From Planctomycetota bacterium (GTDB lineage: Bacteria > Planctomycetota > Planctomycetia > Pirellulales > Lacipirellulaceae), in assembly GCA_029781135.1 (NCBI GenBank), contig JAKOXH010000059.1:62001-126000 (forward strand): 64,000 nt of DNA. Direction: 5' to 3'. The notes below the pieces were generated by a model. The model had not been told where the DNA came from and made no database searches. It worked only from the letters and a program-made list of their open reading frames with translations. This document shows positions 13,908-16,091 of the stretch, piece by piece. A program made the translations under genes and the position numbers. Numbering within the stretch: the first letter of the stretch is position 1; every line of letters begins with the position of its first letter.

Positions 13908-14678
13908 TTATGCGGTCAGTGGAAGCGGAACTTGTTCGAGCGCCGCACAGCATTCGGCAGCGAGTTCGATATCGTTCTTGCGCGGCAATATCGCTGCATG
14001 AATCCGCGCGCGGCGAATCACGCCCTTCTCCAGAAACTCGGCAAAGAGTTGCCACACCAGTTGGGAGTGGCCCGGAGACTTTGTGGCCAACTGTGCCTTG
14101 CGGAAGTCCGTTGTGGGCACGATTTCCAGGTAGCTCAAACCGTTGTTGAGCCGTCGAAGTACGCCGCACATGGTTCCCCGCGGATCGATGGTGCCGTTCG
14201 GTTCGAACGGCACGACTTCACTTCGTTCGCCATCGGCCCAAAAGAAACGGAGTTGCTCTTGGCAATCCACTTCGGTGCCGACACAGATCCGCGGATGGGT
14301 ATCGAGCAAGTGCGTTTGTACCGAGATCAAGAACGATAGTGATGCACAAACGCCGTCGATAACTGTCAGCGGATTCGCTTGCCAATAAATGATCGGTGCA
14401 TACGGCCAGTCGTCCGTCGGTCCGTAGCTCGCGACCAGGTCTGGGCCGCGGGTGTAAACATCGGTTAGCGGGAGGGGCCATTCGTTCTTGGCGAGGCCGT
14501 TACTCGCACGGGTCGCGCGGAACGGTCGAGCGCCAATTACCGTGCGTTCGTGCGTAAGTTGTTGCAGCCCCAAATTTGGGTGCGCGACATCAACGTGTCC
14601 GGTTAGTGGGCCGCAGTGGAGCTGTGCAAGGGTGCCGCTGAGAGCCCAGAGCGACGGCTGATCATGAGTGTCGTCCAT
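13908..14678 (-). CDS. Conserved-looking protein of unknown function
   Basis: Starting at ATG 14678 (MDDTHDQPSLWALSG) the product is 256 residues; an upstream ATG at 14738 is also in frame but overlaps a terminator. No signal peptide or membrane segment is visible. Segments such as PIIYWQANPLTVIDGVCASL and RICVGTEVDCQEQLRFFWAD look like an ordered globular domain. I recognise no family. The stop is 4 bp from the end of the convergent ClpP-like gene. The start lies 42 nt downstream of the terminator of a candidate structured RNA, so this gene may be regulated by attenuation. Confidence 0.7.
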   Translation of the reverse strand: MDDTHDQPSLWALSGTLAQLHCGPLTGHVDVAHPNLGLQQLTHERTVIGARPFRATRASNGLAKNEWPLPLTDVYTRGPDLVASYGPTDDWPYAPIIYWQANPLTVIDGVCASLSFLISVQTHLLDTHPRICVGTEVDCQEQLRFFWADGERSEVVPFEPNGTIDPRGTMCGVLRRLNNGLSYLEIVPTTDFRKAQLATKSPGHSQLVWQLFAEFLEKGVIRRARIHAAILPRKNDIELAAECCAALEQVPLPLTA

Positions 14679-14719: not shown

Positions 14720-14759
14720 AAAAAACCCCGTCGAACACCGCAAGGATGTTGCGACGGGG
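14720..14759 (-). terminator. Strong rho-independent terminator
   Basis: On the minus strand CCCCGTCG (14759-14752 side) pairs perfectly with CGACGGGG (14733-14726), extended by AACAT/GTGTT, and is followed by T6. It ends the candidate RNA directly upstream of the gene at 14678. Confidence 0.8.
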
Positions 14760-14878
14760 CCGGAACAGAGAAGAGGCCGATGTTTCCGAGTGAGGGGATA
14801 AAAAAAATCAGGCAATCGCCGCCCGCGAACGCGGTTGTCACTGTCTCGGTACACACCAAGCGAGGACTGTTGTTCCAC
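14720..14878 (-). ncRNA. Candidate structured RNA (independent sRNA or cis attenuator)
   Basis: The roughly 160-nt transcript would begin near 14878 and end at the terminator. A closing stem pairs GGAACA near the 5' end with TGTTCC just before the terminator hairpin. Inside a bulge of about 20 nt on each side, CCGAG pairs with CTCGG and TGA with TCA. The apex holds CCGCG/CGCGG and a GGC-GATT-GCC hairpin followed by T8. A promoter-like pair precedes it. The size, closing stem and large internal bulge recall 6S RNA, but I see no sequence identity to known 6S RNAs. An attenuator for the downstream gene is equally possible. Confidence 0.45.
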
Positions 14879-14883
14879 TACCG

Positions 14884-14921
14884 ATGATACCTATTTTGGC
14901 TGTCGTGTCCATAGTTTGGAC
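14884..14921 (-). promoter_or_regulatory. Promoter and overlapping inverted repeat of the candidate RNA
   Basis: On the minus strand TGGACA (14911-14906) and TATCAT (14889-14884) are separated by 16 bp, five of six matches each to the sigma70 consensus. GTCCA-N5-TGGAC (14907-14921) is a perfect inverted repeat covering the -35 element and could be an operator. Confidence 0.45.
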
Positions 14922-15152: not shown

Positions 15153-15278
15153 TATCACGCTTATCGTGCCGATGTTCTCATTCTTGTTGCGGAATAGTGC
15201 TCGGCAGAATCGCGGCTGCGAGCGATAGCGGTTTGCGGTTGGGTTGCGTTGCGAAGCGTGTCTCGGAAGGTTGAAGCA

Positions 15279-16091
15279 ATGGCCGACGAACCACTCAAGA
15301 GTTGGCTCGAAACTTGTGAGGTTGCCGCGCGCGCTGGCGGAAAACAATTGTTGGAATGGCGTGGCCGGTTTCGAACGCGCGAAAAAGGTGCGTGCGACTT
15401 AGTGACGGATGCCGATCTTGCCTCGCAACAAGCCATTCGTGCGTTGATTTCCGAGCGATTTCCGGACCACGAATTTCTTGGCGAGGAGCGCACGGATCAT
15501 GAGTTCGTGAAGCGCCCGGATCAACCGGATCAATTCGTGTGGATCGCGGATCCACTGGACGGCACGACCAATTACGTGCATGGCTACCCGCTGTACGCGG
15601 TGTCGTTAGCGTTAACGCGGGGTCAACAGGTTTTGGTGGGCGTCATTTACGACCCGTTGCGCGATGAGTGCTATTCAGCGGCGCAGGGTGGCGGTGCTTG
15701 GTGCAATGGCCGGCGGCTCAAGACAAGCGAAACGACGCACCTTGCCGAGGCGCTCATTGGTGTAAGCCTGCCGCCGCGAGTGCATGGCGACTCAGCGGAC
15801 CTGCGCGACTTCGTGGAGTTGGCGCAGGTAAGTCAGGCCCTGCGTCGCTCGGGCTCAGCAGCGCTCAACATGGCCCACGTGGCCAATGGCACGCTCGACG
15901 CGTTTTGGGCCACGCATATTTATCCCTGGGATGTGGCGGCAGGCGTGCTGCTCATCCGGGAGGCGGGGGGCGTCGTGACGGCCCGCGATGGGGGCGAATT
16001 TGATCTGTGGAAACCACATTTGGTGGTTGCGGGCCAGGCTGGGTTGCATCAAGAAATGTTGGCGGCAATGCTGCCTTTTGAGCGCAAATAA
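15279..16091 (+). CDS. suhB: Inositol monophosphatase family protein
   Basis: The 270-residue product starts at ATG 15279 behind a GGAAGG Shine-Dalgarno. The lithium-sensitive phosphatase motifs are intact: GEERTDHE (metal Glu), WIADPLDGTTNYVHGYPLYA (two metal Asp residues and the DGT loop) and IYPWDVAAGVLLIREAGG (third metal Asp). It hydrolyses myo-inositol monophosphates or related sugar phosphates in the cytoplasm; SuhB proteins can also bind RNA polymerase/NusA, which cannot be judged here. Confidence 0.93.
   Translation: MADEPLKSWLETCEVAARAGGKQLLEWRGRFRTREKGACDLVTDADLASQQAIRALISERFPDHEFLGEERTDHEFVKRPDQPDQFVWIADPLDGTTNYVHGYPLYAVSLALTRGQQVLVGVIYDPLRDECYSAAQGGGAWCNGRRLKTSETTHLAEALIGVSLPPRVHGDSADLRDFVELAQVSQALRRSGSAALNMAHVANGTLDAFWATHIYPWDVAAGVLLIREAGGVVTARDGGEFDLWKPHLVVAGQAGLHQEMLAAMLPFERK

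Follow-up and report, generated by a model that had tools for sequence, protein, structure and literature searches.

The minus strand of the window (the whole 64,000-nucleotide stretch of planctomycete DNA analysed here) very probably carries a small-RNA gene that stands alone, with a promoter and an intrinsic terminator of its own. The predicted RNA is about 157 nt long in this genome (from about 14877 to 14720) and would come down to about 60 nt in other orders. Judged from sequence comparison, we favour with moderate confidence the overall reading that it represents a new family of stand-alone trans-acting small RNAs, with the core as the predicted contact site and antisense pairing as the best guess for its action. 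The functional core, GCCUCUUCUCUGUUCCGGCCCC, and the terminator that follows it occupy positions 14777-14720. The features of the locus and the genes on either side of it are as follows.

14906..14911, minus strand: -35 element TGGACA; the pattern T[GA]GAC[AT]-16-TA...T is kept upstream in order-level relatives
14884..14889, minus strand: -10 element TATCAT, with a 16-nt spacer to the -35 element; most relatives have TATCAT, TATGAT or TAGGAT
near 14877, minus strand: inferred transcription start
14921-14917 and 14911-14907, minus strand: inverted repeat GTCCA-N5-TGGAC lying over the promoter
14779..14877, minus strand: 5' arm of about 100 nt with a purine-rich strand, the P2 stem, and CCGC...GCGG and GGCGAUUGCC hairpins; this form is seen in Pirellulales-type relatives
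14762..14876, minus strand: P1, GGAACA (14876-14871) with UGUUCC (14767-14762) inside the core; an equivalent arm/core pairing occurs in relatives
14786..14849, minus strand: P2, CCGAG (14849-14845) with CUCGG (14790-14786)
14808-14801, minus strand: T8 run that follows a small hairpin
14755..14778, minus strand: core GGCCUCUUCUCUGUUCCGGCCCCG, its last 21-22 nt invariant in BLAST-derived relatives across the order
14720..14759, minus strand: intrinsic terminator CCCCGTCG...CGACGGGG (14759-14726) with T6 (14725-14720); the stem covaries
13908..14678, minus strand: downstream gene of 256 aa without a Pfam match, outside the RNA
15249..16091, plus strand: divergent gene of the inositol monophosphatase family (PF00459, E = 3.9e-66)

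A first-pass annotation of the window had described a sigma70-like pair (TGGACA-16-TATCAT), a hairpin terminator with T6 and a small hairpin with T8, and all three are present on the minus strand as claimed. The GGAACA/TGTTCC and CCGAG/CTCGG pairings were also found, and they are the window's versions of the first and second stems. On the window alone these elements are unremarkable. One promoter-like site was observed against 0.8 expected from shuffling, the 121-nt body without the terminator folded no better than shuffled sequences (z = 0.27), and the body with the terminator folded slightly better (z = -1.94). It is conservation that raises the reported elements above chance.

In a BLAST search of 40 relatives, the locus turned up in the majority of the family's genomes and across many families of the order, and in the alignment of these relatives GCCUCUUCUCUGUUCCGGCCCC was invariant next to the terminator. 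The 22-letter core is almost invariant across three orders of Planctomycetota and lies beside the terminator. When up to 3 mismatches were allowed in a search of 392 genomes of the phylum, the matches in the window's order that belonged to the RNA all had 0 mismatches, so the invariance of the core is not an artefact of exact matching. An exact-pattern scan of the named collection placed the block in Pirellulales, Gemmatales (Gemmataceae) and Isosphaerales (Paludisphaera, Singulisphaera), these being the orders among the matches listed. At E 0.01 a covariance model of core and terminator matched 105 of the 149 class genomes; its weakest matches covered the terminator only, and in one large family of the class (f18) all matches were of this weak kind. 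Outside the class this model found nothing convincing. Both the matches listed and the model gave two or three copies of the RNA in several Gemmatales-type genomes. Diverged copies had compensated stem changes and, in Isosphaerales-type genomes, some change in the CU stretch. Five Isosphaerales-type loci (L305-L309) have a degenerate CU stretch after a CCGAGGC...GCCTCG hairpin and ATCATYC; these copies are possibly a clade-specific variant.

The promoter type is kept together with the RNA. Among 36 order-level, BLAST-derived loci, which include the window's own copy, 33 had a TGGACA-16-TATNAT-type promoter within 200 nt upstream, compared with 0 of 35 in the downstream control and about 0 in shuffled sequences, and many Gemmatales-type loci had a TTGACA-type promoter. 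The proposal of an overlapping operator fared less well: the inverted repeat over the promoter does exist in the window, but it occurred in just 1 of the 36 relatives (the window's copy being in the set) and in 0 of 115 further loci. The terminator stem showed changes on both sides in 7 of its 11 pairs, and its covariation score of 0.316 exceeded both the 0.175 of shuffled sequences and the maximum of 0.148 obtained by sliding the pairing; the core, the first CCCC of the stem included, served to choose the sequences for this test, and the remaining stem did not. The first four pairs of the stem were invariant. Its own promoter, its intrinsic terminator and its intergenic position are genomic features expected of a trans-encoded small RNA. 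Comparison among the relatives showed that selection is strongest on the pyrimidine-rich block and the terminator. The idea that selection acts on the terminator and its flank alone, in the role of a signal in DNA or for termination and not of a regulatory RNA, draws on the contact between core and terminator and on those four unvarying pairs. It is highly improbable, since a dedicated promoter lies directly upstream even where the predicted transcript is about 60 nt, and since the block recurs, without that terminator, in a longer element described below.

The genes around the RNA change from one group to another. The gene neighbourhood is conserved within Pirellulales only, and the downstream gene is often missing even there. 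The 256-aa gene, which in the window starts 42 nt past the terminator, directly follows the RNA in about a third of the loci, and its protein (13908-14678) has no Pfam match. Many relatives have no such gene or have a gene on the other strand, with the promoter, core and terminator of the RNA persisting. The inositol monophosphatase family gene adjoins the RNA in many Pirellulales and not elsewhere, and Gemmatales- and Isosphaerales-type loci have different, unrelated neighbours. An attenuator or riboswitch in front of the gene at 14678-13908 had been offered as the alternative, and the closeness of that gene and its recurrence in a third of the loci speak for it. Nevertheless, the RNA is very unlikely to be a leader because its neighbouring genes change: the downstream genes differ or face the opposite way in most loci, and neither the window nor the relatives' loci gave an Rfam riboswitch match. 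The leader class was rejected.

In the window's order, a 5' arm of 70-120 nt folds back on the core to give a rod. Minimum-energy folds from Pirellulales, the window's family included, commonly had this rod, made of the purine strand paired with the core, a second stem and hairpins. The second stem is kept with different letters in relatives (GUUUACC/GGUAAAC, GUUUGCCG/CGGCAGAC and GUCUGU/ACAGAC). Chimera tests showed that the 5' arm and the 3' part co-evolve. Swapping arms between species cost 3.14 kcal/mol beyond the additive expectation among 28 family sequences and 2.68 kcal/mol among 50 sequences from other Pirellulales-type loci, both with permutation p < 2e-4 by statistics that ignore the relatedness of the sequences. 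A simple duplex test of the 5' arm against the core was no stronger than shuffles (mean z -0.37, 85 sequences). Owing to the poor alignment of the arms, RNAalifold on the family alignment gave few pairs in the 5' arm. A candidate mini-hairpin, GGCC/GGCC, would close the core; it was found by eye and had some compensated variants and some C-A mismatches. In other orders the arm can be absent. The distance from promoter to block ranges from about 7 to 190 nt across loci, and in Gemmataceae and some others it is 7-23 nt, which means that forms of the RNA can lack the 5' arm but not the block. Comparison with relatives supported the earlier description, in which a structured RNA combines its own promoter with a long, interrupted stem and a strong terminator.

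The rod with internal loops resembles 6S RNA (RF00013), and membership in that family had been suggested. As their 6S RNA it would mimic a promoter and bind RNA polymerase in these bacteria, and in the window's own family 6S RNA indeed went undetected in the majority of genomes. However, the present RNA has no 6S sequence. RF00013 gave no match in the window at the gathering score or at E up to 10, and none at the relatives' loci. Rfam as a whole gave no match in the window or at those loci, and a lowered threshold returned weak matches far below the family cut-offs. The planctomycete 6S RNA has the form CCUCUGCCAUGUUCGU...GCCACGGCAUUGCGGUGGAGG. It was detected in three genomes by RF00013 (one over the cut-off) and in eleven by a planctomycete model built here, three of the eleven (G013, G026 and G030) having been left out of model building. 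Most planctomycete 6S RNAs are thus missed by the standard Rfam model. Nine genomes (G013, G025, G026, G027, G028, G032, G033, G035 and G039) carry both a separate 6S gene and the present RNA, the two being at different loci; G013 among them belongs to the window's own family. In addition, the rod is absent in other orders, and the block stays. A 6S identity was rejected on these grounds and is extremely improbable.

The pyrimidine-rich block is probably the contact site of the small RNA, because it is the one part found in every form and, in the shortest, sits close to the 5' end. The RNA would act in trans through this block, which may pair antisense with stretches rich in purines (GGAACAGAGAAGAGGC-like) in one specific RNA or a few of them. 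Among Pirellulales, the arm folded on the block may hold it partly shut until it is opened by a partner; Gemmatales have the block close to the 5' end, where it is predicted to be free. Complements of the block just upstream of ATGs numbered 66, against 67 for the reversed control (6-mers at 831 ATG starts, from crude start calls), and the lack of an excess speaks against a general anti-Shine-Dalgarno role. When 31 genomes were scanned for complementary targets, the matches fell mainly in the RNA's own locus and in the longer element. The chances that the block pairs with RNA rather than with protein appear evenly balanced, and protein binding would explain the invariance of the block equally well.

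In most family genomes, near-copies of the block are part of a second conserved RNA-like element. This element measures about 250-270 nt, carries a 5' hairpin (AGGCGAGCC...GGCUCGCCU) and at least two CU motifs, and ends in GCAA...GUGCCAA. It has 2-4 copies of GCCUCUUC, usually followed by CCGRCCC, and the small RNA has one. No evident terminator followed the GCAA...GTGCCAA end, and the loci tested gave no Rfam match. The element is seen at L213-L230, L180-L181, L241-L256 and L351-L374 (for example L215:2809-3064:+), and a near-palindrome, TGTTGCAAAATTGAACACGTGTTCAATTTTGCAACAC, precedes it. A model of the longer element matched 24 of the 149 class genomes, four of them as partial matches in a Gemmataceae-type family, and had no match in the window's genome. 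In the window's family a divergent gene encoding about 600 aa lies beside the element. Three viral contigs (L375, L376 and L377) also carry the block together with a terminator hairpin. One of them has an integrase and another has adjacent genes that by eye are terminase-like, and the block in these contigs may be a phage-borne copy or an attachment site. Plasmid sequences gave no match.

The block could instead be a protein-binding site, with the small RNA and the longer element titrating or recruiting an RNA-binding protein as CsrB-type decoys do. The block is common to two unlike RNA-like elements and more invariant than the remainder of either, the longer element has several copies of a short motif, and complementary sites near starts are not enriched, all of which fit such a site. 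Several copies of one short motif are also what the longer element shares with CsrB/RsmY-type decoys. The CsrA motif is GGA, whereas the motif here is CU-rich and stands as a single copy in the small RNA. No candidate protein emerged, and 20 invariant letters are long for a single protein site. We consider protein binding possible and distinctly less than probable. More doubtful still is a wider scheme in which the 20-nt CU block would serve as recognition module for a riboregulatory hub specific to planctomycetes. One partner (a protein or a central RNA) would be common to the small RNA and the longer multi-site RNA, and phages of these bacteria would carry their own copy to tap the hub.

The preferred reading, a trans-acting small RNA with antisense pairing as the best guess, has parallels in other phyla. 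The alpha-r14 family (NfeR1 and relatives) of alphaproteobacteria carries the anti-Shine-Dalgarno motif CCUCCUCCC, and like the present RNA it combines an ultraconserved pyrimidine-rich motif with stems that vary in sequence (PMC10746234). The present RNA differs from it in motif and phylum, has one copy of the motif beside the terminator, and shows no enrichment of complements at start sites. The LhrC small RNAs of Listeria have a CU-rich contact motif (a predicted one in the present RNA) in unpaired regions and, in some genomes, several gene copies (PMC4132741), but their short UCCC motif occurs repeatedly in the RNA, and they belong to another phylum. No sequence relation of the present RNA to alpha-r14 or LhrC was seen. 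The Rhodopirellula-1 motif is likewise a candidate planctomycete RNA, described as probably cis-regulatory and as occurring in Proteobacteria too (PMC2864571). No conserved regulatory RNA of the present kind in Planctomycetota was found in the open-access papers searched. The RNA is present in most sampled genomes of its order and in two further orders, and its core hardly changes between orders. Since its promoter, ends and core are known, it can readily be tested.
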